From the NCBI RefSeq assembly GCF_018873765.1, contig NC_057922.1, positions 15,699,563-15,763,562 on the forward strand: 64,000 nucleotides of DNA, written 5' to 3'. This stretch comes from Telopea speciosissima. Its lineage: Eukaryota; Streptophyta; Magnoliopsida; Proteales; Proteaceae. Each line of letters opens with the position of its first letter. Within the stretch, counting starts at the first letter, position 1. The notes under the pieces are model-generated. The model saw only the letters and a list, made by a program, of their open reading frames with translations. It did not search any database and was not told where the DNA came from. The translations under genes were made by a program, and so were the position numbers. Of the stretch, positions 4,088 to 52,527 are shown piece after piece.

Positions 4088-4879
4088 GGGAAAAATTATG
4101 AAATTAGCCACAAATGAGTTTCACTCTACAAAACTGTCTACTCCATCTGTAATTTAACAAATATAACCAAAGAAAAGATTACAATTACAAAAATAGGCAA
4201 AACAGTGTTATACAATCTTGGGTACAACAATCGTGTTTTTTTTTGGGGACAATTTTACCCCTCCACCTTTCCTTCTCGATTACCATGTCCGCCTTTGTAA
4301 CCCCTACCGCCCCACCACTGCTGCCATATCCCGCCCCTACTGCCGCCCTCGCAATCACCGTAACATCTGTTGTATCTGCTTTATCTGGACTACCATCCTC
4401 CAATCCACCCGGCCATCCCCTCGCAATGGCCGCAATGCCCAAGCCCGGTCTCCTTTGGCTTCGGGGACCAACTTCTCCAGTTTTTCTTCTTCTTCTTTGG
4501 CCCCAGGGACAACCTTCTCGCGAAGAGGGGCTTGCATGGCTGAGGTTGGGTCTTCTTCTTCTGCAAGCCGCCAACAATGTCCCTGAAAGAAATAGAGAAC
4601 GTTATTTTTCTGCAGTTTAACCCATCTTCGAACAGGATAATATATTAGAAATTCTACATCTCCAAGTCCTAGATACCAGCAAACTGTTGCTACTTCCTTT
4701 TAAGCTTCTTCTCACCGTTTTCGTCCTCTCCCACGGCCTCAAGGAATCCAGCCTCAAATCCTTCCCAACCTTCCTTTCTATTCCTGAAATCGTATTCTAC
4801 GTCTATCTCGCTCAAACTAATTATGACCGAAGAGAATAGATTAGCATGGGATTTAATAGAGAAAGATTTTGATCCACTT

Positions 4880-7800
4880 TTTTACTTTTAAACGAATAGG
4901 AATTGTTGTTGGAATAAATCGATCCAAATAGGGACAAAATCCCAAAAGCCAGGATCTCCATAGGGCATTCAAGAACACAATCAAGTAAATAATAGAAAAT
5001 AGGGATAGAACCACTGACCTTGTTTCGTATCCATAGTGATGATGATTGCAGCGGAAAATAAAGAACAAAGATCTAGGTGCTTCCCCTCTATTCCCGAAGT
5101 AACTGGCCTGATGAGAATACCGAATGCGCAGTGACGACGAACACTGAATATCTCCCTCTCTTTCTAGAATGCACTCCTCAATAGCAATTGAGAATAATAA
5201 GTTGTGTTGGGTAGAGGGGGGACCTAGCTCTCCTTATATAGTAATCACTATAGGGTCTGACTCATCACAGTCCCAATAGGAATCTATCTGGCCCACACTA
5301 AGCCAGTCCACATTAGACTTCTAATATAACTTAATGACCCCACTTTATTAGACCAAAACCCTAATTAGCCTGGTTTAGGGATTTAATTATGTCCATATAT
5401 AATTTTATTAGAACTAAAATTCTAATATTCTCCCACTTGGACTTACATTAAATTCCTTCTTTTTAAAAGGATTTAAAACAGTTTTGACCAAAACAAATCA
5501 CAGGCTAACAACTCTTTAAGAAAACTTTATGTGCACAATTTTTAAAATAAATTGATCTAGAGGTCATATCAGAAAGTCAATCCTATCCCATAGAGTTTTA
5601 GACACCGAATCATGGCGGTAACTGCATCTATGATCAAGCGACACAGAGCCTTCCATGGTCACGAGAGCCCTCAACTCTACTAACATGGATACAATGTGGT
5701 AGTGTGGCAACGAGATAATAGTCACGCAGTGATTCCTTATGTATTATCCGTTTATCACCCAAAATTTCTCTTCTTTAAGTGGCACAGGCTCACTAGAGAA
5801 ATAAACTTCGTGATTCTAACGAATCTGTATGTCTCATCGAAATAACTCGAGTTATACTTTATGTGTTACAAGACATACCTTTAGGCTAACAACTTAATGC
5901 TGACCTTGCTTAAGATTAACACATTCCTTAAGACTTTAAAATCGAAATATATACATCATGTCAATAAATAAAACACTCATGTGTTTAAAAGAAACCGCAT
6001 GCAATGACACGATATGTATATAAATCAAAGTTTACCATAAGGTAAAAATACAGATGAAAAGAAACTTTAAATTGAAATGAAGCAAAATAAAACAAACTCC
6101 CACTAACTAACCACATCCCATGATGCAACTAAGCCCATGCCCATGACATGTCTCTCAAAAACACAAGGGCGAAGACCTTTGGTTAGGGGATCTGCAACCA
6201 TATCATCTGTACTAATATGCTCCACTGTAATGTCACCTTCCTTTACTTTCTCCTTTATGGTCAAATACTTGACCTCCATGTGTTTAGACCCTCTAAGTCC
6301 TTTATTGTTGTTTATAACCAACACAGCAGAGCTGTTATCACAATATATCTGGATGGGTCTATCCACAAAATCTACAATAGTCAACTCCTTTATGAGATTT
6401 CTGAGCCAAATAGCCTGAGTAGCAGCCCCATAGCATGCCACAAACTCTGCCTGCATAGTCGAAGTGGTCACCAATGTCTACTTTTTACTCTTCCATGATA
6501 CGCCCCTCCGCCATCAAGAAAACATAACTCGATGTGGATTTCTGTCATCCTCACAGCCAGCAAAGTCGAGTCGTATACCCCACTAGCTTGAGTTCAGGAA
6601 CGTGTCGTAAGTCGCATATAATCTCTTGTCCCCTTCAAGTACCTCAATACTTTCTTAGCAAGCAACCCAGTGACTAAGACCAGGATCTCGATCGATACCG
6701 CCAAGAAGTCCGTCACAAAAGCAATATCCGGTGCAGTACGCACTGAGCATACATGATACTACTAAGTGCGCTAGCATAAGGCACCTTCTTCATTTCATCC
6801 CTCTCGCTTTATTTTTCGGCACTGTGTCGAACTCAGTTTGTCACCCTTGAGAATAGGAACATTCCCAGGTTTGCAATCCAGCATACTGAACCTCTCCAGA
6901 ACACGATCAACATAAGCCCTCTGAGAAAGACTTAATAAACGGCGAGAACGATCCCTATGGATCTCAATCCCAAGAACAAAAGAGGCCTCACCAAGGTCCT
7001 TCATGTCAAATTCCCTAGATAAAAGTTGCTTTGTATTATGCAACATCCCTAGGTCACTGCTTGCAAGCAGGATGTCATCCACATACAGAATGAGAAAATA
7101 GAATTTGCTCCCACTGACCTTGTGATATATGCACTGATCCACTTTGTTTTCCATAAAACCAAACGAAGTCACAACACTGTCAAATTTCAGATACCACTGC
7201 CTAGAAGCTTGTTTAAGACCGTAGATAGACTTCTTGAGTCTACACACAAGATGATCTGAATCATCCACTGCAAAACCCTCAGGCTGAACCATATATACTT
7301 CCTCATCAAGATTGCCATTGAGAAAGGCGGTTTTAACATTCATCTGATGCAGCTCCATATCAAAATGAGCTACCAATGCCATGATCACCCTGAAGGAATC
7401 CTTCGAGGAGACTGGAGAAAAGGTCCCATTGTAGTCTACTCCCTCTCTCTAAGTGAATCCCTTGGCTACCAGCCTGGCTTTAAACCTCTCAACTTTTCCT
7501 TTGGAATCTCTTTTGGTTTATACACCCATTTGCAACCAATGGGCTTACAACCTTTAGGTAAATCAACAAGCTCCCAAACATCATTATGTTTCATTGATTG
7601 CATTTCATCTCTCATCGCATCTATCCACAAATCTGACTGAGGACTAGAAACAGCGCTTGAATAAGTAACTGGATCGACCACACAACCAATATCATAGTCA
7701 TGTTCTCCCAGATAGACCTCATAGATAGGTGATATAGTGACCTTCTCTCCCTGGTGGATCTCCGTAATGGTGCCACTATCGCCTCAACCTGAATCGAGGA

Positions 7801-8520
7801 ATCTCACTGGGCGCATCAATGATAGGATCCTCAACCTCATCCTGAATAAGAGGAATCTCATCGGGTGCTACATGAATGTCGGGGACGGTATCAATATCGA
7901 GGCTCTGAACTCCAAGAGTGTAACCAATGGCACAGTATGCCCCACATCGATCGAATAGGTAGAAGAATGGGTACCGATGTACCAACCATGTGACTATCTT
8001 GAACATCGAGAACAGTCATTCTTTTGCCACATCAAATTCCGAAACTTCATGTCTGTGACTCCACAATCCTAGTGCCTCCCAGGATTATAAAATTTATATC
8101 CCTTGAATGATCTAGGTAGCTGACAAAGTAGAACGAGTAGTCTTGGGATCCAACTTGTTTAAAGTTGGATTATACAACTTCACTTCTGCAGGGCACCCCC
8201 AAACTCTAAGATGGTTTAAACTGGGTTTACGGCCGGTCCATAACTCAAAAGGTGTAAGAGGAGCGGCTTTAGTAGGTACACGATTAAGGATATAAAGAGC
8301 AGTTTTCAAGGCTTCACCCCATAAGAACTTAGGTAAATTTGTCCTACTAACCATACTCCTCACCATGTCCATAAGGGTACGGTTACGCCTTTCGGCGACC
8401 CCATTTTGTTCAGGACTTCCTGGCATAGTAAACTGACTAACTATTCCAGAGTCCTCAAGGTATTTGGCAAACGAGCCCTTAAGCTGTCCAGCATCGCCAT
8501 GTCTGCCATAATAATTGTAT
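4880..8520 (-). mobile_element. Ty1/Copia retrotransposon fossil, 5' truncated
   Basis: A broken Copia element on the minus strand. Parts in its own 5'-3' order: end of integrase (about 8,430-8,110), reverse transcriptase (about 7,700-6,795, with the Y-V-D-D active-site motif), RNase H (about 6,474-6,103), a purine tract at 5,431-5,440, and a 3' LTR of about 550 bp (about 5,428-4,880) with a TATA-like box. Gag, protease, the start of integrase and a 5' LTR are not seen. There are several breaks, about four or more, so it is inactive. It sits inside the MULE at 4,088-9,335 and is absent from the matching MULE half at 17,290-18,075. Moderately old. Confidence 0.85.
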
Positions 8521-17290: not shown

Positions 17291-18075
17291 TTCTCTATTA
17301 AATCCCATGCTAATCTATTCTCTTTGGTCATAATTAGTTTGAGCGAGATAGACGTAGAATACGATTTCAGGAATAGAAAGGAAGGTTGGGAAGGATTTGA
17401 GGCTGGATTCCTTGAGGCCGTGGGAGAGGACGAAAACGGTGAGAAGAAGATTAAAAGGAAGTAGCAACAGTTTGCTGGTATCTAGGACTTGGAGATGTAG
17501 AATTTCTAATATATTTTCCTGTTCGAAGATGGGTTAAACTGCAGAAAAATAACGTTCTCTATTTCTTTCAGGGACATTGTTGGCGGCTTGCAGAAGAAGA
17601 AGACCCAACCTCAGCCATGCAAGCCCCTCTTCGCGAGTAGGTTGTCCCTGGGGCCAAAGAAGAAGAAGAAAAACTGGAGAAGTTGGTCCCCGAAGCCAAA
17701 GGAGACCGGGCTTGGGCATTGTGGCCATTGCGAGGGGATGGCCGGGTGGATTGGAGGATGGTAGTCCAGATAAAGCAGATACAACAGAAGTTACGGTGAT
17801 TGCGAGGGCGGCAGCAGGGGCGGGATATGGCAGCAGTGGTGGGGCGGTAGGGGTTACAAAGGCCGACATGGTAATCGAGAAGGAAAGGTGGAGGGGTAAA
17901 ATTGTCCCCAAAAAAAACACGATTGTTGTACCCAAGATTGTATAACACTGTTTTGCCTATTTTTGTAATTGTAATCTTTTCTTTGGTTATATTTGTTAAA
18001 TTAACGATGGAGTAGACAGTTTTGTAGAGTGAAAACTCATTTGTGGCTAATCTCGTAATTTTCTCTTTTTTATAG
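17285..18075 (-). repeat. Half of the MULE of unit 1, inverted copy
   Basis: Reverse complement of about 4,088-4,875: one TIR (17,900-18,075), the GC-rich subterminal segment and 250 bp of interior. Several long open frames here (17,534-17,948, both strands) mirror those at 4,185-4,620 and are compositional, not genes. The second TIR is not found on this side. Confidence 0.75.
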
Positions 18076-23100: not shown

Positions 23101-23370
23101 TGGGGATGTAAATGAATAGCTGAAATCCGTTTCTGAATCCGTGTCCGTATTTGTTTAGCACTATTCGAATCCGTCCGAAAGCTAAACGGATGCGGATACG
23201 GATAGGCTATAGCTATCCAAAAGGCTATATTTACATGTAAACGGATAAAATATCCGATCTGTATCCGTGTCTGTATTCGTTTAGCACTATCCAAATTCGT
23301 CTGAATGCTAATCGGATGCGGATGCGGATATAGTACTATTCGAGCCGAATCCAATCCATTTACATCCCTA
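23101..23370. mobile_element. hAT MITE, TAGGGATGTAAAC family
   Basis: 270 bp, ends TGGGGATGTAAATG and CATTTACATCCCTA, with a perfect 8 bp duplication GTGCTGAC at 23,093-23,100 and 23,371-23,378. The interior is CGGAT/ATCCG-rich. The empty site is at about 10,038-10,046 in unit 1. Confidence 0.92.
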
Positions 23371-23471
23371 GTGCTGACACATTCATACAATAAAATTAGA
23401 GATAAATGGCATATTTGTACTTTCAAAAGCTTAATTAGGACACTATTATTCCACCCATACTTGATAAATAG

Positions 23472-24254
23472 TAGGGGCGTCAACGAGCCAGGCTGGGCCA
23501 GGCTTGACCTAAACCCTAGTCCAACACTAGGGGCCTTAATCTAAACGCAAGCCTAGCCTCGCCCTATCAGGGTCAAGCATACCCTCAACCCAATTTGACC
23601 CTGCCAAGGTTTTCTCAAGCCCGACCAAGCCCTGATTGTCTCTGAATATCTTGGCTCATTGAGTTGTGGTACTAATAAAGCCCAATCATAGCCCGGATTA
23701 AAAAAAGGCATTTGTCACAACAACAAAAAAAAAAACTAAATTGTTTTAAGATTTGAACCCATAGTAGCTTGATTATAATAGATCAACTTTGACCATTGTA
23801 CCAAAGCAAAACTTCTATATATATTATAAATTTATATTATATAATAGAGAGTCAGGTGGCTCCGCCAGGGTCATGCAGATAGGGATGTAAATGAATAGTC
23901 GAAATCCGTTTTCGTATTCGTATCTGTATCCGTTTAGTACTATCCGAATCCGTCTGAAAGCTAAACGGATACGGATACGGATAGGCTATAGCTATCCGAA
24001 AAGCTATATTTACATGTAAACAAATAAAATATCCAATCTGTATCTGTGTCCGTATCCGTTTAGCACTATTCGAATCCGTCCGAAAGATAATCGGATGCGG
24101 ATGTGGATATAGCACTATCCAAGCCGAATCCGATCCGTTTACATCCCTACATGCAGATATCAAACATAGCCCGACCTTTGCTTATCCCAAGATCTGTTGG
24201 GCTCAGGGCGGATTTGGGCAAGCTCAGACTGATCAGGTTTTTTTACACCCCTTA
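23472..24254. mobile_element. hAT MITE with a second MITE nested inside
   Basis: Inverted counterpart of 9,462-9,944, flanked by ATAAATAG and ACAAATAG (one mismatch). It is 300 bp longer than its partner because of the nested element at 23,880-24,149. Confidence 0.85.
23880..24149. mobile_element. Nested hAT MITE, TAGGGATGTAAAC family
   Basis: 270 bp, ends TAGGGATGTAAATG and GTTTACATCCCTA, perfect 8 bp duplication CATGCAGA at 23,872-23,879 and 24,150-24,157. It is inserted in an older hAT MITE; the unit 1 partner near 9,560 is empty. Confidence 0.93.
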
Positions 24255-30526: not shown

Positions 30527-31690
30527 TTACGCTGTGTGCTTAATTTATGTCTTCTTTTATGTTCTATTTCCAATGCCTACTACGTACTCTTATTAGTTTC
30601 ATCTTCCATAAGATGTTAACCGGTACGTGTTCCCAAATTGCCTTATTTATAACAAAGAGGAGATTTTCTTATTACCGTTTCCATGTGTGTATGTACGTAT
30701 GTCTTTCGAATAGAATGTTTAGCGCGCTTATATGTAAAAAATGGGAAATACTAGTGTCGTAGCTCTGGAGATCCGGAATTACCCAATCAGATCATGGTAT
30801 TTGGAATCTCTTGTAGAGTTAGACCTTGACTCCTTTATTACCTTACCCTGCCAGCTACTGAATCTTTGGGTCGACTATCCATAAAAACATACTTTACACA
30901 GTGGATGTTTGGGAGCAGAATTGATGAAATTCTAGTATGGCTAAACCTCAAGCCCGACCAATTGTAGTCCAAATTTGATCTTAAATTTCACCACGAGTCA
31001 CCCCACGAGTCGCAATATTTCTCATGAACCAGCCATGTCTAGATATTAGAAATATTAAATTTTAATGGGAAAAGACAGAAGATGTGGCAAGATGATACAC
31101 CTCTTTGACAAAGAGGTCCTAGTTTTGATGGCGGTATCGCTTGGTTCCACATATTTTAGGGATTTCTTTATTATTTTCTTTCTTTCACTTTTTACCATGG
31201 CCCACATGCAGCATTATTGGTGTGGTGAGCAGATTCCTCTCCACACTGCCATTATAGATATAGAAAGAAGGAACCCTCTCCTTTTATTTTATTATAATTT
31301 TTTTTTTAAAAGTTGGCACTTGAAATACAAAAGAACTCAGAAAATATATGAATCATTTTCAACGTTATAAGGACTTGATATTATATGAATCATTTTTCAG
31401 TTTTATGTAATTTACAAAAAAAAAATAATAATTGAATTAGGCAGTTGTTAATTTTCTTCATTCTTCTAGCCAAAAGTAAAAGAAAGAAAACAAAATACAA
31501 AGAAGATGAAATTTTCACTCTAAATATAACACAGTTACAAATCGATTCTTTGCATATAAAAGGTGTATCCTTCTGCTCTCTGTAACTTTGCTTGGCTAGA
31601 GCAAGGAAAGTTGCATTTGGAAGCCATAAATAATATAACAAAATCCAAAAATGACCTTTACATTCTCCTGTAAGCATATTGGGGATTAAT
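30527..31690. other. Intergenic, end of unit 4
   Basis: AT-rich. Up to about 31,000 it matches the 3' flanks of the other BBI units; beyond that I see no gene or repeat. Confidence 0.6.
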
Positions 31691-31701
31691 CTAAATCACT
31701 T

Positions 31702-34700
31702 TCATTCCTGGTGTCTGGGGTGTTGATTCTTCTCTCTCCTATAAGCTTTAAAGAGATCGAGGCCAAGAAAGATGTTGACCAAATTCATTCCTGCCATCCC
31801 AAAAAGGGCTAGTGGGAGTTCAACACCCTTCCCGAACTTGGACGCATCTTTAATGAGCTTGATTGTGATGAGAATATGCGAACCGAGCCTTGCTAGGAAG
31901 AAGGTGATCCAGTTGAGTGCCCATTCTGCTCTCACAAATTTGCAGTTTGTGTCCCGTACTCCAGCCATTCGCCGCACTTTCCTCACGTGTAGGAATATTG
32001 AATGAAGCTGTTTGTCACACAATACCACTTAGGATGCGTCAACAGCAGCATATGTAAATGTGCAGTGGCTCTATTTCAACAGTTGATAAAGAAAGACAAG
32101 TTGAAACGAGAGGAGACAAAGTGAGAAATTGTTGAGATTAAGATAATGAAAACAATGTTTGTGACATACCTCACAAATAAGGGTGAGAATAAGATAGTTC
32201 ACAGTGACTCTTCGATACAGTGCAAGTGTAAAGCAAACCAGGAGTAGCAGGTGGTGTACAAGGATTGAGGGGATCAATCCACTATACAGCCGGTACCGGA
32301 GCATATCCCACTGGTCGTATGCAAAGTAACCACAGGAGAAGCACAAAGCCAGGTATACACCGGGCCACGTCCCTCCAAACAACTGAGCATGGTCAAACAT
32401 CGTACTTAGACCCTTTGTTGCCCATTGATTAACCAGGATGAGAATGACTGCAAATGAAATCAAGTAGATTTAAGCAAAACAAAGCACAAAGAGCCCAAAA
32501 ATCTGTTAGTAGTCATGGTGCGGTAAAAAACTCACATTGAAATAACTCATCCAGTTAACAACCCAAAAAATTTGCAGACATTTGCATTTACTTTCTTCTT
32601 GAAGAACTGTTGCTAATCCTGGCAACGGCTTTGGTTGCTTCATTGTGTTGTTCAAGTTACATGGTGATTCTTAAAGTACCCTTAGTAATATTATATTAAA
32701 ACCAACAAACACCACAGACAGTCTCTGAACCCAATTAAATCTCTTAAAGAGCACCAAAATTGGAAGGGTGAGGGGGAAGACATGCTTTACAACAACTGCT
32801 GGAAAGTGAAATCGCAGTCTTTTTAAAAAATAAAAACATTGATATGCGGCAAGTGCACGGCCAGATTTGCAAGGATGTCTGTCAGAGGTTGTATCAGCTG
32901 ATCAATAATCTAAAGAACTCATACATGGTTTAGTTGTATAAGTGAAGGCAACATGTCATTTAAGTTCAAGCGAGGTTGGACAAATTCAAGTAAAAGGCTG
33001 CAGGCTTTCTAAGTTCTTACCAAATCCACTAATTTGGATATAACAGGTGTAGATAAATATCACTTAGTAAATATGATAGCAGCTCAGCTATGAGATGGAG
33101 AATGCCAGGCCTCTTTTAGTCATCCAACGGAGCTGAACTGGCTCATTTGGATGAAGCTGTCAATCACACTTCAGCATCATCTCAATCATCATACCCTGAT
33201 CCCAAACTTTGTGCTGCTAAGGCTATATCTTTGTGAAAACTCCCCCGTATCAGATTGACAGCATTCTAATTTTTTTTTTTAGATCGACAGCATTCTGATT
33301 CATGATACATGCCATACTAGTATCAGAGTAATCAGAGAGTTGCCTGTGTCACAGAAAGCAGCTGACTGAACCCTCTGAAATTCTTTATTTTCCTCCCTCT
33401 TTCACTCTTCAATTGGAAGTTACCATACCATTTAGCTACAAATGCATTACCCTAAGTTTGACACATAAAAATGAAAATTTTAAACTACTAGAGGATAAGA
33501 TAGCTCAGAATAGCCCCTGACAACTTCCATTGCCGTTTTGTTTTCTGTACACATCTTCTGTTTAGCACTGTCCCCGGGCCTGCAAATTTCTTTTCTTGAT
33601 GATAAATCTCTTCACAAATTACCAGAGCAATGGTTTAGGTCCTAAAATCAATGGTTCCATACATATATCAGAATACCCACCCACTTTTACCTGTACAACT
33701 GATACAAGCAACTGTATCAATGATGTCATCATTTTAAATTCTTAATTCATCATTACCACTAATCAAATTGAGAAATAAAATGGGTCTAAGAAAACTAATG
33801 TCCTGAACATTTGGTGTCTGTCTTCGAACTGAAGAAGCTCCTTCCTCTGATTTCTTTCTTTGGTTTGTTTTCAAATGGAAAATTCCAACTCCTGGCTAAA
33901 CTCAAAAACATAAAAGGGTTGCACATCAAGGTAAAAGGAACATGAAGAATTAGGTAACGGCACATCCAAGCTAGATAAGAGGTAAAATGGACTGGGAGCC
34001 AAATTTATCAGAATTATGTGATCTGAGGGCCCTGTTCATAATGTAAAACATGATTCTGAATATCCTTTTCTTGCTGGACAAAATGAAGATCTGCAATGAG
34101 TCATATTATAATATACACGTCCTCAAAAATTAAATCTTTAAAGTTAAGAAGCACTTGCATGCAGATTTAAGTCAAGTTTCAAGAGGAACATGTGCAGACA
34201 CCTTAAAACCCATGTCATTGAATTACTTTAGCCTGTTAAGAACCTAATGGTGCTTCCTGTAAATAGAATGCCTCACCAATTGGTTTGGTCTATGCAGATG
34301 TCCGCCAGGTGAAGATTGCGAAGCATCTGCCCCCTTCTGGCTCAAGGAGACTTCAATTAGGATCCTCAGACCTACAGGATGATCTCTAGCTAAGAAATGG
34401 AAGCTTCACAATCCATCTAGAAGACCAGTTATAGGCTAACTGGGTTGGTTGACTAGCTGGGAATATTGAAGTTTGACATCATAAACCTTCCAAATCCATT
34501 GACTGGAAAAAGCTGCGAGGTCATGAGCTAACTATTTTGGGATTTTTTTTATTGTAATGAGCTTACCCTATAAGCCCAAATATGGGGTTTGTGAGGTCTA
34601 TACAAAATTAGATGTTAATTTCTATTTTCGCTGTTATTTAGTAGTGCTTCTAGAAGGGCTGGACAGGTGTCCTACATTCCAACCATAGTTTCTATTTTGT

Positions 34701-37700
34701 AATGGTCTAGATAGTTTCTATTTTATGGAGACATTAAAGTTGTAGGGGACTCCTCCTACCATACATAGGATTTCCTATATTATGATAGTTATGGAAGTTA
34801 TAAATAAAGAAGAGGGGCCGTAAACCTCTCCTATGAGTTAAATTAAGAAGAAAACTTGGGTTTAGCCTCTTTGGGTCAGTGGTGATGTTGTTCCTTGGAC
34901 TATGGTGATGCAGCTCCATCCCTGTTGTGGTAAATCAACAAGATTATTGGTGGTGATGCCCTTCCCACAGGCCTAGTGGTGATGCTAGGTCATAGCCCCC
35001 TATCCTTCTATTCTGGTTTCTATTTTATGTCCCAGCAAATATTGAAGACTCTTACGCATTCTATTGAGTTTTCCTGCTGTGTTTTGATTCTGAATCTCAG
35101 ATTTAACTGCTTTTAATCATCTAAACAGCAATTCAAGTTCTGATTTGATTTCTTTCCTGTTATGCTAAACTTGTGATGCCCTGTTTCTTTGATTTCCAAG
35201 TTGAGCCAACACCCTATCATAATTCATAAGTCATAACAGCAGATCCAGCCACTTGATTGGGGTAAACTTTTGGGGCTTTATTCTCCTTTACAGTATCCAT
35301 GCTCAACCTGAATTTGCGGCTAATTGGCACTACTGATCTTGAGTTACAGGTTCTCTATTCACTTGCTAATTTAGGAATTTTCTAAGTTCCTAATTTCTGT
35401 CCTGTTATGCCATCTCAGATCCAACCGTTGGATTTTCTTGAAATTTGGGAACTAATTTCGGCAGGTTATTAGCCACCTATTAAACTTCTACTATATTCTG
35501 GTTCACTTTCATTCACTGCAATCCTATCCTGAGTTTGGCTTCCTAAATCTGATTGTCAGGTTATTGAAATGCATTAATATGAGGTGAAGGAACCTTGGAC
35601 CTTGAATCCTATGTCAACGGAAAGGTGGATCACATTATTAATGGAGATCAATTTCCTCCAATGGGAAATAATTTTATAGGCATGTAGAAGAAACATGGCA
35701 AAGTTCTTATTGTGGATAACTAGTCTGTTAATAAGAATTTCATCTAATTTTGTCATCAACAAACAAATAGAATACAACAAAGCATTATAACAAACTTTTT
35801 ATCTGTCTCTTCATTGAGGCTTATGCAATGAATTCAGAAGTGCTATTATAATGTCTCAACACGCTGTCACATATGTTATAACAGCAACCATGCAAGTTTG
35901 TTAATTTAAATGTTTGTACTCACTATGGCCATAATCTATTGGAATAGCAGAAAAGGGCTCACATGGCTGTTCCCAAATATTTGATATAGGTTGTAGTCGA
36001 ATTTGACTATGAGGTTTGCATATCATTCAATACTATAGTTAAAAGGATGTGATTATTCACTGCTGTAATATTCTGTGTCCATTATTTCCAATAGAGCATA
36101 AAACCTAACATTACTACTTACAAGTATCATACCAAGATCTCTACAAAAGCTAAACAAAAGGAGAAGCAATATTATTTCCAAAATCCAAACCATCCAATAA
36201 TTATGACACTATTAACAATAAGCATACTCTATCAGTTATTGCATTTTATAGTTTAATAGAAATAATTTGATTAAAATATTAGACAATCTTTCTCCACTTG
36301 GACTTGTACTTTACCATTCTGATCATTTTCCAATTTCTTGTTTTCATCTCCATAACTTGAAAGCAGTCTACTACTTCACAGGTTCTTGAATGTTCAAGGA
36401 ATTTCATAGACAAACCCAGATGAAGTTTATCTATCTATCTATCTCACACACACTCACTAGCAAACACGCATTTCATATTGTAAATTTAAAGTAGAAATTT
36501 CAATTATGTTCTTTTCTTTTCGAATTCCTTGTTAATGAATGAACGTCTAGAGTAAACTGACTACAAGTGCGTTGATTTTGGGAAGGGATGGGGGAGAGAC
36601 AGGATCGAGGAGAGTTTTCTCTTTGGGATCAGGAGGGGGAGAAGAAAGAAGGAAGAGAATGAGGTAATGAGCTTCTTAAATTCAATATTGGGAGTGTGGT
36701 ATTTTACATAGATATGAAATTCTAGTCTGCCGACTAGATAACTGACATTGTAGTCTCCAAACCACGCAAATCAAATATATCTCCCTTATTGGACAAAGGG
36801 TCAAAAATACCCTCCCTTTTTATTTTTTTCTCCCTCGCATGTCCCCAAATACCCGGGGTATATATATATATATATCCAAATCAAGACCACTTCCTCTCTT
36901 TGTGAGTCCAAATCACTTATAAAGACGGATATTCCTTAGACTCTAAAGTATGTTGATATTCCTTCAACCATTTAATATTGAGATTTTGAATATTTGAAAC
37001 TTATGATTTAATTTTTAGACTCTACTCTCTTTGTTCAACTCAATTCAGCCTGAGTTCCCTTGACTATGTTTCTTCTTGGTTTCTCCTATGTTTCGTTTTA
37101 TAGTACTTTATACCCTTTCTCTTTTTCAAAAGCATCTCTCTTTCCAAGGTGTTAAATGAGTTAGATTAGAGGGATGACTGAGAGAAGAACATGTAAAAGG
37201 CTATAAGGTGTACAAAGCCAAGGAATACAAGTTTTGGGGGGGGGGTGGGGGGGGGGGGAAACCCACAAGGCACTTTCCCATACCCCCTAACCCATCCAAC
37301 AGCCCAAAATCCATTACCTAAAAACAACGAAGCCAGGGGGAAAAATCGTTAAAAATACAATTCCCACTTTATATTTTAAATAATAAAAAAATCCAAATGA
37401 AATCACTAGAGTTCATCCCTATAATAAATTGATTTTTACACATGCTAAATCTAATAATCTTCCTTGATATGGAGGAGAAACAGATTATTCAGCTTATTCT
37501 CATTTTTTTTTTTTTGGGTGGGATGGGGGGCAGGTTAAATAGCTTCTGATTCACTGCATTTTCTTAGCCTTATCCCAACTTAATGGGGTCGGCAACATGG
37601 ATCCAAACAAAGCAAAGTAGGTAAAATTGCAGTCTAAACAAATAAAAGAGAATGAAGAGAAGGGAAAATAGGGATGCGAAAAGAAAAAAAAAATGAAAGA

Positions 37701-39476
37701 TGAAAGTAAGAGGAAAGAGGCACAACCCAACAAGTCAAAAGAATCCACGAAGTAGTATCAAATGTAATTACTAAAGAAATATGAAAAGCTCCCTAATTAG
37801 GTTTAAGAGTTGAAACATAGGAAACTTTTGGATTCAACTCAAATCAGCCTTATCCCAACTGAATGGGATCAGCCACATGGATTCGCATTTTCTAATCAGC
37901 TCTATTAAAAGACATACTTGTTACTAGTCCTAAGCTATGCATGTCTTTTCTCACCACTTCACCTAGAGTCATTTTAAGCCTACCTTGTCTCTTTTAGCTC
38001 CTTTGATCTGGAATCAAATCACCCCTCCGTACTAGAGTACTCAAAGGCATTCATTGCACATGTCCATCCCACCTCAAACGACTTTTCTCACAACTTATCA
38101 TGTATCAACTCTTAATTTAGCTCAAACTTGTTAATTCCTTATTTTATTTTTTCTTGTTTTACTACGGATTCATCTCAACATCCTTGTTTCAGCTGCACTA
38201 AGTTTGTTTATACGTTGTTTCTTCAGCGCCCAACATTCATCTCCATACATCATTGCAGGCCGTATAACTGTCCTATAAAATTGAGAATGTTTTCCAAGTG
38301 ATTATTCACAAAAACTTCAAGATTTTTCTTTGTCGATGGGGGGGGGGGGGGGTTGAAGTTTTTGCCAATTAATGAAAAACAAAAGTCAAACTTTTCGTAG
38401 CCTTTTCCCAATTAAATCGGGTTGGCTACACTTGTCCTCCGCCATTTGACTCTGTAATGAAAAAGAGAAGTAGAGTGAACAAAATCCATTTTAGAAACAG
38501 AACATTGGTAATAAGTGATAAGCACATAAAACTATCAAGAGAACAGACTGGGGGAATGAAACAGCAGCACCTTAATAGGAAAAAAGTAATTTTTATTAGT
38601 TTTTTATGAGCAAAAACAAAAAGAAATCCATTTGAACAACACCAACAACATCCATTGACAAAAGCAAACCTTATCTCCCAAAGAAATTCAAGAAAGGGAA
38701 TAATTAGGAATATTTCAGAGTTCATATCAATGCAATATATAATTCTAAAACTAAAACAATAAAATTAGGAATATTTCAGACTTCATATCAATGCAATAGG
38801 TAATTCTAAAACTAAAACTATCTCAAGTTGATCTCTATTTCAGTTCAATTCAGTAAACATTTGCAAGACCCTGGCCTATTGCCTCCAAGAACCTCCAGTT
38901 CACAGATGGAGCATCAAATCCAAAAGTAGACACTGATCCAAACTCCACATTATTAAGCAAGGGGGGAAAAAGGGGTTTCTCAACGACCCACAAGGAGAAA
39001 GCTTCGTCCTAGAAAACCCAATTTGGGGGGAAAAGGAAATTCAACCACCAAAATCAGTAGAAGCAAAACAAAACAATCCATAAACCACACATGTTCCAAA
39101 AACGCGCACTTCTAAAACAACCAACCAAGTCGAACAAATAAAGTACATAAAGCAACCAAACCCAGAAAGAAAAAGAAAAAAAAAGGACAATTCTGTAGAA
39201 AATGAATCAAGAAAGAGAAAACAAAGATTGAGCACCTGAAATAGAAGCAACGGAGGAATGGAGCAAAGACACGCTGGTGTTGACAAAAAGAGGATCACGA
39301 AATACAAAGAATCGGATGACCCAGTTGGCAATTTGGTAGAAACAGCAACCAGCAACCACATAGACTAGTTCTGTTCTCTTATGGAAGACGATTTCGAACA
39401 CAACAGAGACGAACCACAGAACCAAAGTGGCCACAAAGAAAGCTCCAGTATTGTTCTCATGGCTACCCCTCGCCAT
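31702..39476 (-). CDS. TLC-domain membrane protein
   Basis: Three exons on the minus strand: 39,476-39,236, 32,447-32,170 and 32,007-31,702. They join in consistent phases to 274 aa. All introns are GT-AG. The protein has several hydrophobic segments (about 11-33, 37-58, 79-95, 108-122, 136-158, 163-175, 204-225, 236-258), as expected for the TRAM-LAG1-CLN8 (TLC) fold. A paired histidine H145-H146 lies in the central helix I-L-V-H-H-L-L-L, and the segment L-I-C-E-L-H-S-I-F-L-H-V-R matches the conserved region of plant TLC proteins such as the At1g31300/At4g19645 type. TLC proteins act in lipid handling in the endoplasmic reticulum or other membranes; the substrate of this subfamily is not inferable here. 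Intron 1 is 6.8 kb. Confidence 0.87.
34600..35400 (+). mobile_element. Possible solo-LTR fossil
   Basis: A 'ttataaataaagaagagg' TATA-like motif followed by a leader-like stretch and tandem 'gtggtgatg' words resembles a plant LTR. Ends and family are not certain; no coding part. Old. Confidence 0.25.
37232..37258 (+). repeat. Guanine run
   Basis: About 20 G interrupted once by T, in the TLC intron; on the transcribed strand of that gene it reads as a C run. A second run of about 14 G is at 38,338-38,352. Confidence 0.9.
37845..38300 (-). mobile_element. 3' end of an RTE-like LINE
   Basis: On the minus strand the frame reads R-P-A-M-M-Y-G-D-E-C-W-A-L-K-K-Q, then A-E-T-R-M-L-R, the classic C-terminal region of plant LINE reverse transcriptase. 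It is followed 250 bp later by N-R-A-D and V-A-D-P-I-Q-L-G. The 3' terminus 'cccattcagttgggataagg' is the usual end of these elements. It has internal stops and is inactive. Extra copies of the terminal motif occur at 37,566-37,612 and 38,397-38,440, suggesting serial insertion. Confidence 0.8.
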
Positions 39477-40289
39477 TCCTCAATCAATTCAGAGACTCTT
39501 CGTCTCTGCTTTGGTTCCTTTCCTGTGCTTCCTCCCTTGGCAGCCCATTCTTTACGAGCTTCAAATCTCGAAAAGTGTGTGGGTGAGACTTACAAAGAGT
39601 GTTGTGTTCTTTAAAGAAAGGTATAACGGATGATCTGTCGCTCTTCTTGCAATAATGTAGACAGCGGTAACGGTCTATTATCATGAAGGTCAGTATGGGC
39701 TTTTGCAAGAGCAAAGTTGTTGAGTTGAATTGATTGATGGGCTCGTAGCTCCAGGGCCCATGAATCCCTAAGAGGATGACCTCTCTGTGTTGCACTCTGT
39801 AGCCTCAGCGCTACGCAATGAATATTGTTGCTAAGCCAACGCGCAACGAGTAACTTGTGCCACACGACAAGTGGTGGGCCATGGCTGACTCTAATTTGCC
39901 ACGTGCTGAGTGCCAAAGTGAGAAGATGGGATCCATTGTTGAGGGATAAAAATCCTTTGCCTTAATCTTGTGGTGTCTTGCAATACGGGATTGTGAACTC
40001 GACAAGTGGAAGATGTGACATCCAATGGTGCTGAGCTCTAGAAGAAAAAAAACGTAAATAAATAAAAATTGGGTCAATCCAGTACGCACCGTTTGATGAA
40101 GCATCTTCCACGCGTTGAGCTCTTAGGCTTGAACTGCAAGACTCCACATGATGAAGGAATTGCCGAAGATTTTAGTCTCACTGTTGAGTGGTTTCATGAT
40201 TAAAATGGGAAAAGATTCACACACTATTCTCAGGTTTTTTTTTTTTCCAAGCTCTCTCACAAAAGTAAGGATTCATATTTTTTTGGGGA

Positions 40290-43251: not shown

Positions 43252-43527
43252 TGGGGATGTAAACGGATCGGATTCGACTCGGATAATGCTATATCCGCAT
43301 CCGCATCCGCATCCGATTAGCTTTCAAACGGATTCAGATAGTGCTAAACAGATGCGGACACGGATATGGATAGGATATTTTATCTGCTTACATGAAAATA
43401 TAGCTTTTCGAATAGCTATAGCCTGTCCGTATTCGCATCCGTTTAGCTTTCGGACGGATTCGGATAGTGCTAAACGGATACAGACACAGATACGAAAACG
43501 GATTTTGGCTATTCATTTACGCCGCTA
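43252..43527. mobile_element. hAT MITE, TAGGGATGTAAAC family, near CAO
   Basis: 276 bp, ends TGGGGATGTAAACGGA and CATTTACGCCGCTA, perfect 8 bp duplication CTTCTACT at 43,244-43,251 and 43,528-43,535. CGGAT/ATCCG-rich interior. It lies 600 bp upstream of the CAO start codon. Confidence 0.9.
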
Positions 43528-44126
43528 CTTCTACTACTCAATGGATCCCACCAAAGAGATCAACAAAACCAGGCCACAATAGGCAGGCCCGTATATAACA
43601 ATCTCCCATATCACATTAAAGTATTTCCGAATCACTCCAATATGGTTCCAAGATACAGGCCAAGGCCCAAGCCCAAGCCCAAGCCCAAGCCTAGACCGTG
43701 GCCCAGACGGATCAGCTCTTATCCTATTTATTGGTTAGGGATATACCGTAAATCCGGTACTACCACATGAGTTATCTACAAAAGATTACAGAAGATATCA
43801 ATTCCATCCGAGCTGGCAAACTATAAAGACCTACTGAGTCAAGATACTCTAAACGGTAATGAACCCTCGTTTTCACAAAGGATGTGGGAAAGGAGTGCCA
43901 CGTAATCACGTATACAGCTGAGCAGTCCACGCTTATCCACGTGTCAACCCGTGGGAGGCAAACCTAGATCGTGCACAACACCAGCCTCTTATGTTTTCAT
44001 CAAAAAAAAAAAGAAAAAAAAACACCAGCCTCTTATCAACAATTCTCCAAAATAAAGTATAAAATTCTCTCCCTAAGATTGTCCCTATTTTTCTCGCTCC
44101 TCCCCTGTTCTGCAGCTTCAAACGCC

Positions 44127-47100
44127 ATGACCACCTTTGCTACAGCTGCAGCTCTATCTTTACCAATCTCGCTCTGTAGATCCTCTAAGGTTAACACTAA
44201 GAAGGTAATTTAAACTCTCTTTTTTTTTTTTTTTATCATTTGATCTGTTCAATTTATCAGAAACCCACTAAATTTAGCAGAAAGTTTCACTTGGGTTAAT
44301 AGCTCTGAAGAGATTGATGTTGGGTTTCAGGGAGTCAGACGAGGGTTTGGTGTATTTGCTATATTTGGAGAGGAAGGAGGGTTCTTGGAGAAGAAGAACA
44401 CTTGGGGTACACTGTTCGACGTCGAGGATCCGAGGCCTAGAGTTCCTCAGTGTAAAGGGAAATTCTTGGATGCGAATCAAGCTTTGGAGGTGGCCAGGTT
44501 TGATATTCAGTACTGTGATTGGCGAGCTCGGCAAGATCTTCTTACTATCATGCACCTTCATGAAAAGGTAATTTTTCTTCAATCTTTTGGTGGGTTTGAA
44601 GTTGAAAGTTGATGGGTTTGTCCTCATACTTGAATGGCCTTTTCAGTTTGTATTTGATTTTGTTCTTGAAGGTTTTAGTTTTTGGGTTTGGGGTTGCAGA
44701 TTGATTGGGTTTTTCTTGTTTTATTGTTATAATTGAGTTTTGATTTTCAATTTAAGTTTTTAAATTTAGAATGGATGGATTCTTTCTGATTGTTTAGTTG
44801 GTCATTACTGTTTGTGTTTGTGTGGCTGTAGGTAGTGGAAGTTCTGAATCCCTTGGCAAGGGATTACAAGTCCATAGGTGCCATGAAGAAAGACCTTGCA
44901 GTGCTGCAAGAAGAACTGGCACAGGCTCACAAACAGGTCAGTTGATGGGGTGAACATAGGCTTCTTACACAAATTCATCCATGAGTAACACATTCTCACT
45001 AAAAGCCCATTTAATGTGGACAGTTCCATTGATTAGTTACATTAAAAATTTAAAAAGATCCTCTGATCATGGGAAATATTACATGGATTGAATGTGACTC
45101 AGAATCCAACCTAAGATATCAATCAGGATTAATGGCTTGGTTCAGGATAAATTTATTGTCTACCCAAAGCAGGGGATTGATAGGCTTAGATTAGTTAGTA
45201 GAGGGTCTTGCTTTGGCTCCATACCATAGGTGTCCTATTTGATTAAAGAAGGTCAAGAACTGTGTCATACCTTGTTCCCAGATGAACAATTTTTTCTTCT
45301 GGCTTCTGACTGTACCAGGTTCACATATCTGAAGACAAGGTTTCTGATGCACTTGATAAGCTAGCATACATGGAAGAATTGGTAAATGATAGGCTGTTAC
45401 AAGACAGGAGTACAACTGAATCTGACAGAAGTTCCCTTACTCCTAGCACGTCCTTCTCGTCATCTCTTGACACAGTGAAAGGCAAGTTGCCGCGGAAGAG
45501 CCTGAATGTTTCAGGTCCTGTTCAGCAATATAATCCTCATTTGAAGAACTTCTGGTACCCAGTGGCCTTCTCCACTGATCTGAAAGATGATATCATGGTA
45601 AGTTAATTTCCAAAATGCATAGCAATTTCATATGAGTACATAAGCAAGGTATTTATTCTCTCTATTTGTCTGAATTCCTCCTAACATTTTGCCTTTCCAC
45701 TTATTGTTTCAGATTCCTATAGAGAGCTTCGAGGAGCCATGGGTAGTATTTCGTGGGAAAGATGGGAGTCCTGGTTGTGTTCAGGATACATGTGCTCATA
45801 GAGCATGTCCACTTCATCTTGGCTCGGTCAATGAAGGCCGCATTCAGTGTCCCTACCATGGTTAGTAAGATTAGATGAAAAAAGTTTGGTATGTACTTTC
45901 CAGATATGGTTAATAATACATATATAGGTACATGCATGAGTACAATTGATCATAGGAAGGAATAATTGTTAGACACATACATGTTTTAATTTGTAAATTG
46001 GGCCGGATGAACTTCAGGATGGGAATACTCGACGGATGGAAAATGTGAGAAAATGCCATCAACTCGATTACTTAATGTGAAGATAAGATCACTACCTTGC
46101 TTTGAGCAAGGAGGGATGATCTGGATTTGGCCTGGTAGTGATCCTCCAACTGCCAACCTCCCTTCTCTGGAACCACCTCCTGGATTTCAAATCCATGCAG
46201 AGGTAATTTTCACTGCATTTAGATGTCAGATAACTGTTATATACGAAATACAAAGTTAGCAGAGATGATTGTCTGTTTCCTTGTGTCATTAAGTTGTGCA
46301 GACTCATTTTCCTGATGTATCTTCTATTATTGGGTGGTAATGTTTTGTGCTTCCTTGTGATTTGTAGATTGTCATTGAGCTGCCAGTGGAACATGGGCTC
46401 CTTCTCGATAACCTCCTGGATCTTGCCCATGCCCCTTTCACTCATACTTCTACCTTTGCCAAGGGATGGAGTGTGCCTAGGTCTGCAGTATACCTTTCAT
46501 TCTAAAAATTGTAATGATATTATCAGAAAACATGCTTTATGGATTATTAGTCCTGATGAAACAGTAAAAGTATCCATGAATTATGTGGTTACCAGTAACA
46601 GACATCATCTACTGACAAACATGGCATGAAGTTGATCCAGTAAATTTAGATTCGATTACATTAGGACCATGGGGATCATAGTTACCTGTTGAATTAGAAT
46701 TTCAATCTGCAGTGAACAACTTCATGCTACTAACACTACAAACCTTTCTGAATTCTCAGCTTGGTGAAATTCTTGACTCCTGCATCTGGCCTTCAAGGTT
46801 ACTGGGACCCATACCCAATAGACATGGAGTTCCGGCCACCATGTATGGTGCTTTCAACAATTGGGATCTCAAAGCCTGGAAAATTGGAGGGGCTAAATAC
46901 CCAGCAATGTTCAACACATCTTCACCAGCTTCATGTGTGTTTGCCTTCATCAAGATAGAAAACAAGACTATTGTACAGAATGTCTCTGGATTTCGCTCCT
47001 ATTCTGAAGCAAGTCCCATTCATGTATCTCTTGTGGAGACATTTTGCTGAGAAGGTTAGAATCTCACTCCATAAAGTAGCAGAAAATAAAAAACCCATAT

Positions 47101-47854
47101 ACCATTTATGTCATGAATAAGGTATACTAACTTTATACTTTGGTAAACCCTTTAAAGGTCAGACATGAAACTTCAGTTTACTAATTTAGATGATACACAT
47201 GAAAATACATACGTTAGTTTAGACAATAGATGGATGGGATCTTTGTGCTCTCAATTCAGGTGAGCTGCTGATCCCACCACAACTAGTGATTGGATGACCA
47301 TAAGTTTTTTGCACTAGGAACATAGTGTGGACTGTGGAGGGTTAGTTACACCGTTTGATGATATGAAACTAACACTGTTGGTTATAGTGTTTCAGACAAG
47401 CACCCTGAAAATCCCAGCCAGAACTGGGAAAAAAAATAGCCACACTACCTAAATGTTAGTCCTTGTGCCATTGTTAACTAATGTATTGAGTCTGTTCATC
47501 ATCATAAATTTGCAAGTTAGTATAAGTTAGTATCAAGAAACAGAAGCCAAAGTACGCAGAGGAGGGATCATAGTTCCTCTAAGAATTTGGAGACGTTCTT
47601 GAGATATTCACATGCTTCCCTTCCTATATTTCTTATTACCAATCTTTTGTTGTGTTTGGGCCTAAATCCTGGATATGATGCAGGTCCTGAATGAAGATCT
47701 ACGGCTGGTACTTGGTCAGCAGGACAGGATGATCAAAGGAGCAAATGTCTGGAACTGGCCTGTATCCTACGACAAGCTAGGAGTAAGATACCGGTTATGG
47801 AGAGATGCTGTGGAACGAGGAGCTAAAAGTTTACCTTTCAGCAAAACCAAGTAG
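44127..47854 (+). CDS. CAO: Chlorophyllide a oxygenase, with one in-frame stop
   Basis: Nine exons: 44,127-44,204, 44,331-44,567, 44,832-44,936, 45,319-45,597, 45,713-45,860, 46,018-46,202, 46,368-46,480, 46,760-47,054 and 47,684-47,854. All introns are GT-AG and phases agree; 536 codons, the Arabidopsis CAO length. CAO oxygenates chlorophyllide a to chlorophyllide b in plastids. Order: short transit peptide; regulatory A domain with degron-like [10 protein letters not shown] (94-103); linker; catalytic domain with the Rieske cluster C260-A-H262...C279-P-Y-H282, and mononuclear iron site D362-L-A-H365-A-P-F-T-H370. Exon 8 contains TAG (46,956-46,958, codon 448) where the family has a residue in S-S-K-N-K-T-R; the frame continues conserved beyond it to F-S-K-T-K. 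As written the protein would lose 89 residues. Either a null allele, an assembly error, or a non-functional copy. Confidence 0.93.
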
Positions 47855-48890
47855 ATTATCAGCCAAGAAATGGATTAAATCCTTTACTGGCTCTCAACTC
47901 TAAACCAGCAGTTTACCAAGATGCGGCAAATCCAAATCCAATGTCACGCAATACTCATCGAGTTCACCACCCACCCCTCATATTTCTCATAAGTGTAGCT
48001 GAGACCCTCCGGAAACTGTTGATGGTTCAGAGGCATGGAAGAGATGATCCCCATGTACAAGTGCCTTGTAAAGAAAACTGTACACTATCTTTATTGTTTT
48101 TTTGTGTACAGTGCTGAACCCATTTTTTTGAGCTTGTTCTGCCCATTCAGGTCAACAAATGCACAAATCCTGTCCTATAACTGGTCTTTGTAGTTTGATC
48201 TCTTATCAAGCTATTGTTGTATTAAATTAAGGATATCAGTTATTGGATTTCTACTTTTTTGAGGGCAATGCCACATCAATAAGACAATAACCACATGCAA
48301 TTCAATTGTGGACACCGGTGCATTTTGAATTGCTTCTGATATTTTATTTGATCTTTTTAATTTAAGTGGGTAAAGCTATACAAAAGATCGAGTAAACTTA
48401 TTAGTAATGATTTGATGATCATGGTTTATATCCAAAGGAGGGTTTTCAATTGCGGACACAGTTGAACATTCAAGTGGGCAAACGCTATAATGCCAAATAT
48501 AGAAAAAATTGTTTAGTTATGAGGTGTTCAGCTTAAGGTATAGGCCAAATTCAATTCTTGAGGTGTAGAACATAGAGATTGAGACAACAAAAACCCATCT
48601 CAGGATCAACAAAATTTTCTTTACTATATCACTGAAAGATCACAGCATCAATCACTTTCCTCTCTTGCACTCAGAAATGGACAAAATTCAATCATTCGAA
48701 GTTTAAGCCATATATATTGATACACACCAAAAACCCTTCTCATTAACAATGAAATTTTCGTTATTATTCATTGAAAGATCGTACTACTGAACATAGAAAC
48801 GCCTGTATATAAAAGAAACCCTAACTCCCCAAAAGAAGACAAAGAAGCAAACCATCCTCTCTTCCGCTCGATCCTATCATCTGAGACATA
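47855..48890. other. CAO 3' flank and intergenic
   Basis: Probable CAO 3' UTR to about 48,240, then AT-rich DNA with no recognised gene. Confidence 0.6.
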
Positions 48891-48898
48891 GAAGGACA

Positions 48899-49228
48899 TT
48901 ACAAAGCTGAACCACAATAAGGGCAGAAGATGAAACCAGGATCGACGACACGAGCACAAGAGTGACAACGAAGAACATCAGAGAGCGTGGAAGGAGACGA
49001 AGAGGTTGGAGGAAGGGATACCGACTCAGGGAAAAAGAGATTGCAGTTTCTACAGTGCATTAGAGGCTCTTTACCAGACCAACGCCAAACAGGGACAAAG
49101 AAAATCTTCAGAACTTTCTCGTAATCCACCAGATCAGCTGGAGAACCGCAGGTGATACAGCGACCTACACCGGTCTTGAGAACCTGACGGACTTGTTGCT
49201 CTAATCCACCCACGAAGAAGAAGAACAT
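48899..49228 (-). CDS. Zinc-ribbon 15 family protein
   Basis: Single exon, 109 aa, minus strand. It has four C-x-x-C knuckles: C24-x2-C27, C59-x2-C62, C88-x2-C91 and C102-x2-C105, which can form two zinc ribbons. The first half F-F-F-V-G-G-L-E-Q-Q-V-R-Q-V-L-K-T-G-V-G matches the conserved N terminus of a small plant protein with a zinc-ribbon 15 domain. The middle is aromatic-rich (F-F-V-P-V-W-R-W) and a serine/proline linker precedes the C-terminal ribbon C-P-Y-C-G-S-A-L. The start is the first ATG of the open frame and fits the family length. Biochemical role is not known to me; it could bind RNA, DNA or protein. No membrane segment or transit peptide is evident. Confidence 0.82.
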   Translation of the reverse strand: MFFFFVGGLEQQVRQVLKTGVGRCITCGSPADLVDYEKVLKIFFVPVWRWSGKEPLMHCRNCNLFFPESVSLPPTSSSPSTLSDVLRCHSCARVVDPGFIFCPYCGSAL

Positions 49229-51656: not shown

Positions 51657-51914
51657 TAGTGGAGTAAATGAATAGCCGAAATCTGTTTCCGTATCTGTGT
51701 CCGTATCCGTTTAGCATTATCTGAATCCATTTGAAAGCTAAACGGATGCAAATACGGATAGACTATAGCTATCCGAAAAGCTATATTTACATGTAAACGG
51801 ATAAAATATCCGATCCGTACCCGTTTAGCACTATCCGAATCCGTCCGATAGCTAATCGGATGCGGATGCGGATATAGCACTATCCGAGTCGAATCCGATC
51901 TGTTTACAGCCCTA
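51657..51914. mobile_element. hAT MITE, TAGGGATGTAAAC family, decayed
   Basis: 258 bp. The flanks TTTACATG and TTTAAATG are an 8 bp duplication with one mismatch. The interior CGGAT/ATCCG pattern closely follows 23,101-23,370. Confidence 0.8.
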
Positions 51915-52527
51915 TTTAAATGACATGGGCATTAATGAGATATTGCACCAATGGAAAAGATTAATCCAAAGAAAAACTTTCTCTTCACCCATGACAATAA
52001 TCTGTCCCCCTGAGTATGCACTTGCTGTTCCCAGACTCCCATCCAATAGTACCCCAAAAATAAAAAATGGTGGGTTGTGGGTGAAGAGAAAATGGGGGTT
52101 TTTTTTTTTTTTTTTTTTGGGATGAATAAAAATTATATTACAAAGAAAAGAAGAGGAGAATATACAAGCCCGAGGGCAAAAAAGAAAGAAAGAAAGAAGA
52201 GTTGGATACTACCTCAAAGGCATACACAGTCCACCAAACAGAATTATACCATAGACATCGGTCATGCTCAGAGGTACATATTATATGTGATCTGGTAAAT
52301 ATCATAAGTAAATGGACCATCGAAATTACAATGTATTGCAGTTCTATACAGAGTATATATGCATCGATAAATGTTACAAACATTTGAAGCAGATTTATTC
52401 CCTTATGAGCTTTTCAGCTTTATCATGTTAGAGAAATACACAGTATGCGAGAAAAAATAACTCATCTCGCTAAGTATTATTGATGTTGCAGAGAACCACT
52501 TCTAAATAATCGAACTGTCATGATCCA

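Follow-up and report, generated by a model that had tools for sequence, protein, structure and literature searches.

Comparative analysis of the Telopea speciosissima genome revealed two full genes for chlorophyllide a oxygenase (CAO), one of which carries an in-frame stop codon. The interrupted copy lies in the stretch of DNA analyzed here, 64,000 nucleotides of contig NC_057922.1 (positions 15,699,563 to 15,763,562, hereafter the window), and the intact copy lies elsewhere on the same chromosome. The explanation that we favor, as a probable rather than a secure one, is that one member of a duplicated CAO pair was lost recently, while the other supplies chlorophyll b.

The CAO gene of the window and its in-frame stop codon

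The gene in the window occupies positions 44127-47854 of the forward strand, where nine CAO exons join to give 536 codons and a terminal TAG (47852-47854). The exons and the internal stop are as follows.

44127..44204, + strand: CAO exon 1, with the start codon and, by position, the transit peptide region; 87% identity to exon 1 of the intact copy
44331..44567, + strand: CAO exon 2
44832..44936, + strand: CAO exon 3; 94% identity to the intact copy
45319..45597, + strand: CAO exon 4, 279 nt; two codons more than in the intact copy, in frame
45713..45860, + strand: CAO exon 5; Rieske Cys/His ligands, by motif
46018..46202, + strand: CAO exon 6; 95% identity to the intact copy
46368..46480, + strand: CAO exon 7, encoding DLAHAPFTH
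46760..47054, + strand: CAO exon 8, with the TAG inside it; 93% identity to the intact copy
46956..46958, + strand: in-frame TAG, codon 448; CAG (Gln) in the intact copy
47684..47854, + strand: CAO exon 9, ending in the normal stop codon (47852-47854)

Translation of the joined exons contained one internal stop, the TAG at codon 448, just where a first-pass annotation made from the sequence alone had placed it in a nine-exon gene of 536 codons; the remainder of the reading is free of stops and frameshifts. All eight introns have GT-AG borders, in agreement with that annotation, which had described the splice sites as being in place. It had also stated that homology picks up in the same frame after the TAG, and the same-frame reading does resume directly, as seen over 12 residues in both the window copy and the intact paralogue, while the CAO-like gene of Prochloron didemni reads KTRLLYRLALDF at this segment in a frame that agrees with that of the window copy. 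A mis-called frame or splice site as the source of the TAG is ruled out by the eight GT-AG introns and by the frame shared with the paralogue and Prochloron, and the TAG is a single in-frame stop of the assembled sequence. The further claim that it breaks a conserved segment holds for the flanking residues only; at residue 448 itself the paralogue has Gln and Prochloron has Gly.

Regarding the identity of the locus, the intact paralogue gave profile matches to the Rieske, PaO and VanA_C domains. When the protein of the window copy was ended at the TAG, the Rieske [2Fe-2S] domain (PF00355) was retained at 86.3 bits, compared with 87.8 bits in the intact copy, whereas PF08417 (PaO), present in the intact copy, was not found in this shortened protein by the profile search, and the VanA_C match fell from 55.4 bits in the intact copy to 26.6 bits against a cut-off of 23.5, with only 25 residues matched. 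The DNA encoding the PaO/VanA_C region is still present downstream of the TAG. None of the NCBIfam models matched at its cut-off, all matches lying far below it, and a scan of viral contigs gave no match. Three prokaryote loci were found, among which that of Prochloron didemni, which we take to be a CAO, has 54-56% identity to CAO over two segments, compared with 34% and 29% for the other two. Prochloron makes chlorophyll b. In the draft Prochloron contig the CAO-like gene switches frame, from 3 to 1, at L021 2519-2530, facing residues 386-389 of the window copy, which is perhaps a sequencing error of the draft assembly. Judged by its domains and reading frame, the window locus is a copy of the CAO gene but, as assembled, would not encode a working CAO.

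With the TAG, translation would stop after residue 447 of 536, and 89 residues (17%) including the PaO domain would be lost. The DLAHAPFTH motif of exon 7, presumably the His pair of the mononuclear iron site, lies upstream of the stop. Asp485 (window numbering) aligns with Asp294 of DdmC (dicamba demethylase), a residue that binds the catalytic iron as its third ligand, and also with the Asp in a Glu-Asp pair of NdmA; the DdmC alignment is weak for that part alone (-2.3 bits), while that with NdmA spans the whole domain (71.8 bits). By this alignment Asp485 is the probable third ligand of the mononuclear iron of CAO, and it would be lost by truncation. Thus the iron ligands, all of which the first-pass annotation had regarded as being in place, are indeed encoded, but the probable third one lies downstream of the TAG. 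The stop is located 96 nt upstream of the last exon junction, and NMD usually needs roughly 50 nt between the stop and the last junction. With this spacing and the loss of the 89 residues, the PaO domain and a probable iron ligand, NMD and a null product would be expected. Published rice alleles point in the same direction, a premature stop in OsCAO1 being reported for the pale green leaves of pgl (PMC4762379) and the absence of 18 C-terminal residues being reported to go with reduced chlorophyll b in fgl (PMC11202714).

The second CAO copy and the duplicated segment

The intact copy is found on the minus strand at C7:48025635-48029451, with all nine exons, GT-AG introns, 534 amino acids and no internal stops. 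A search for a second CAO locus had been proposed in the first-pass annotation, and a complete copy on the same chromosome is what it yielded. The codon matching the TAG in this copy is CAG, a difference of exactly one base, consistent with the earlier suggestion that one changed base could explain the stop. Since the second copy is complete and on the same chromosome, the stop need not affect the supply of chlorophyll b, and a loss in the window would be that of a duplicate rather than a unitary one.

A DNA search of the own genome (822.9 Mb in 1287 contigs) with 301 bases of exon 8 gave two places, the window itself and C7:48026405-48026701 on the minus strand (91% identity). At the protein level, the genome search gave 26 matches among the best candidates, comprising the nine window exons, the nine exons of the second copy, one fragment on C8 and seven relatives at 28-40% identity, which we presume to be other Rieske enzymes of the PaO group; no third CAO gene was found among these 26 matches, the search scoring best candidates only. 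The fragment (C8:56470122-56470358; L012 5123-5359) is a lone piece of CAO of about 200 bp, consisting of part of intron 2 and exon 3; its identity is 95% across 202 bp aligned with the intact copy and 84% across 242 bp aligned with the window copy. Because intron sequence is present, it probably did not derive from a spliced mRNA.

Comparison of the window with 89.5 kb around the second CAO gave 36 matching pieces, and of the 25 listed (above 80 bits) 13 are collinear and in the same order, nine of them at window positions 31453-39585 and four over the CAO gene (43792-48223). The other 12 listed pieces comprise eight that hit one same dispersed repeat and four lying elsewhere, with broken order. 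The CAO pair therefore sits in a duplicated segment, the second copy being inverted and about 32 Mb away on the same chromosome. Two features of the upstream part are given here.

31453..39585, no strand assigned: upstream part of the duplicated block, in an order common to the region of the second CAO
32074-32469, - strand: ORF with a TLC domain, in the upstream block

Several other elements were seen in the window. At least four copies of a dispersed repeat (about 270 bp long, with many cggat/atccg words) are present, at 43254-43527, 23103-23372, 23877-24149 and 51657-51917, and each shares 85-90% identity with a copy that lies some 3 kb upstream from the second CAO. The ORFs at 4153-4617 (+) and 17537-17956 (-), about 13 kb apart on opposite strands, have translations that are near-identical over most of their length and are probably a repeated element rather than a gene. 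The stretch 6798-8519 (-) holds retrotransposon remains whose domain content points to the Copia type, with matches to RVT_2 (PF07727) and SH3_retrovirus and an integrase-core match slightly below the cut-off. Tail to tail with the CAO gene there is an ORF of 109 amino acids (48899-49228, -) with several CxxC motifs, zinc-ribbon-like by eye.

Divergence, constraint and the age of the stop

Between the two CAO copies Ks is 0.31 and Ka 0.047, giving a Ka/Ks of 0.15 (0.10 in the catalytic domain), and the introns have diverged by 0.30 over 1920 aligned bases. These values indicate an old duplication and a constrained pair, and the Ks and Ka/Ks suggest that both copies were retained through most of their history as duplicates; codon divergence thus demonstrates past purifying selection on the CAO pair.

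The two branches were compared with Prochloron as outgroup, over the catalytic domain and on an alignment of two tblastn segments with the stop left out, the N-terminal part of the Prochloron protein aligning unreliably. The 20 replacements between the copies divide into two on the window branch, six on the intact branch and 12 unresolved, and those resolved after codon 448 number none on the window branch and two on the intact branch. Identity to Prochloron is 175 of 301 compared positions for the window copy and 171 of 301 for the intact copy. With this outgroup, and on small numbers, no accelerated evolution of the window copy was seen. The nonsynonymous share in the catalytic domain is 11 of 28 changes after the stop versus 13 of 53 before it; the higher share after the stop would fit a longer relaxed period and is a point against the recent loss, but the difference is not significant (Fisher p = 0.20; 0.83 for the whole gene).

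A neutral model, in which 4.1% of substitutions produce a stop, indels occur at 0.10 per substitution (from the introns) and two thirds of these are assumed to be frame-shifting, predicts about 28 disabling events in a copy unconstrained since the duplication, whereas none is seen besides the TAG. Under the assumptions of the model, the unconstrained period would make up less than about 11% of the time elapsed since the duplication, a rough upper bound that loosens to 19% if the indel rate is lowered to 30% of its value and to 29% if stops are the only events counted. An old, decayed pseudogene is ruled out by this shortfall together with the Ka/Ks of 0.15 and the lack of an excess of changes on the window branch. 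A window copy with neither another lesion nor faster change implies that the stop is either recent or a one-base error.

Probable loss of one duplicate and its alternatives

In the reading that we favor, an old duplication of a chromosome segment would have left two CAO genes, one of them in the window. A recent single transition from CAG to TAG, with CAG presumed to be the older state and the T presumed to be truly in the plant DNA, would then have turned the window copy into a null allele, either fixed or still segregating. Its mRNA would be degraded by NMD, and any protein made would end at residue 447 and lack the PaO region and the probable Asp ligand. The intact copy, which lies on the same chromosome, would make the chlorophyll b, assuming that it is active and covers for the loss. 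Duplicate pairs commonly lose one of their members. A literature search, with most subscription papers outside its scope, found neither chlorophyllide a oxygenase and Proteaceae together nor Telopea, Macadamia and duplication together.

The principal rival, to which we give a distinctly smaller though still appreciable chance, is that the TAG is a consensus or base-calling error, in which case the window copy would be intact and the plant would have two working CAO genes. The features that suggest recency count here too, one lesion in 536 codons with no other decay also looking like a one-base assembly error and thus being a point against recent loss; the difference from the paralogue is a single C-to-T change, no relaxation of constraint is apparent in the window copy, and the title of the assembly paper names long reads and linked reads, so that residual base errors are possible. 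There is, however, no positive sign of an error, and the rest of the exon sequence and the splice sites are clean. About as doubtful is a heterozygous site, at which the reference would represent a null allele and the other haplotype an intact one, a sub-case whose odds are contained in those of the recent loss. The stop looks recent, and the heterozygosity of 0.76% quoted for Telopea speciosissima (PMC13080361) makes a segregating null allele plausible, but the search with 301 bases of exon 8 gave its two places and no alternative haplotype contig, although a collapsed assembly would hide one.

It is very improbable that the window copy is still functional, with the stop spliced out or read through or the truncated protein having a regulatory role, despite constraint on the pair having lasted until recently. 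Splicing to exon 9 from alternative donors in exon 8 at 46764, 46848 or 46935 would remove the TAG and keep the frame, but these donors score 0.8, 4.2 and 3.1, compared with 6.0-12.0 for the 16 real CAO donors on a matrix trained on the same 16, and each in-frame alternative splice would delete at least 40 conserved codons. Of the donor-like sites only 46798 is strong (10.0), and it lies out of frame; a scan for in-frame internal introns of at least 60 nt that would remove the stop gave none above the score cut. The AAA ACA following the TAG differs from the plant readthrough context as we know it, which counts against readthrough. Least probable of all is that a truncated protein of 447 residues, or a stop-skipping splice form, has been kept as useful and tunes chlorophyll b by competing with the intact enzyme; a long two-gene period would have come first, after which the N-terminal region but not the full catalytic center would have been kept.

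Among known systems, the pgl allele of OsCAO1 is similar in that, as reported, a one-base substitution creates a premature CAO stop in a plant with two CAO genes, but pgl has been mapped and has a mutant phenotype, and in rice the two genes form a tandem pair with different expression (PMC4762379), whereas the Telopea duplicates are about 32 Mb apart and known here from sequence alone. Rice fgl and cao1 knockouts also resemble the present case, C-terminal loss from CAO, even of 18 residues, being described as going with reduced chlorophyll b (PMC11202714), while in Telopea 89 residues would go, in one of two diverged copies. As in nonfunctionalization of duplicate pairs generally, the intact paralogue is kept and the other copy has a single disabling change, although compared with the typical case the window copy is at a very early stage, with one lesion and no further decay.

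Thus, the remaining choice is between the ordinary early loss of one duplicate and a base error. For annotation, the window locus is a probable recent pseudogene, or a gene with a flagged base, and the other copy is the intact CAO. If the stop segregates in the population, it would amount to a natural experiment relating CAO dosage to the chlorophyll a/b ratio in an otherwise two-copy plant.
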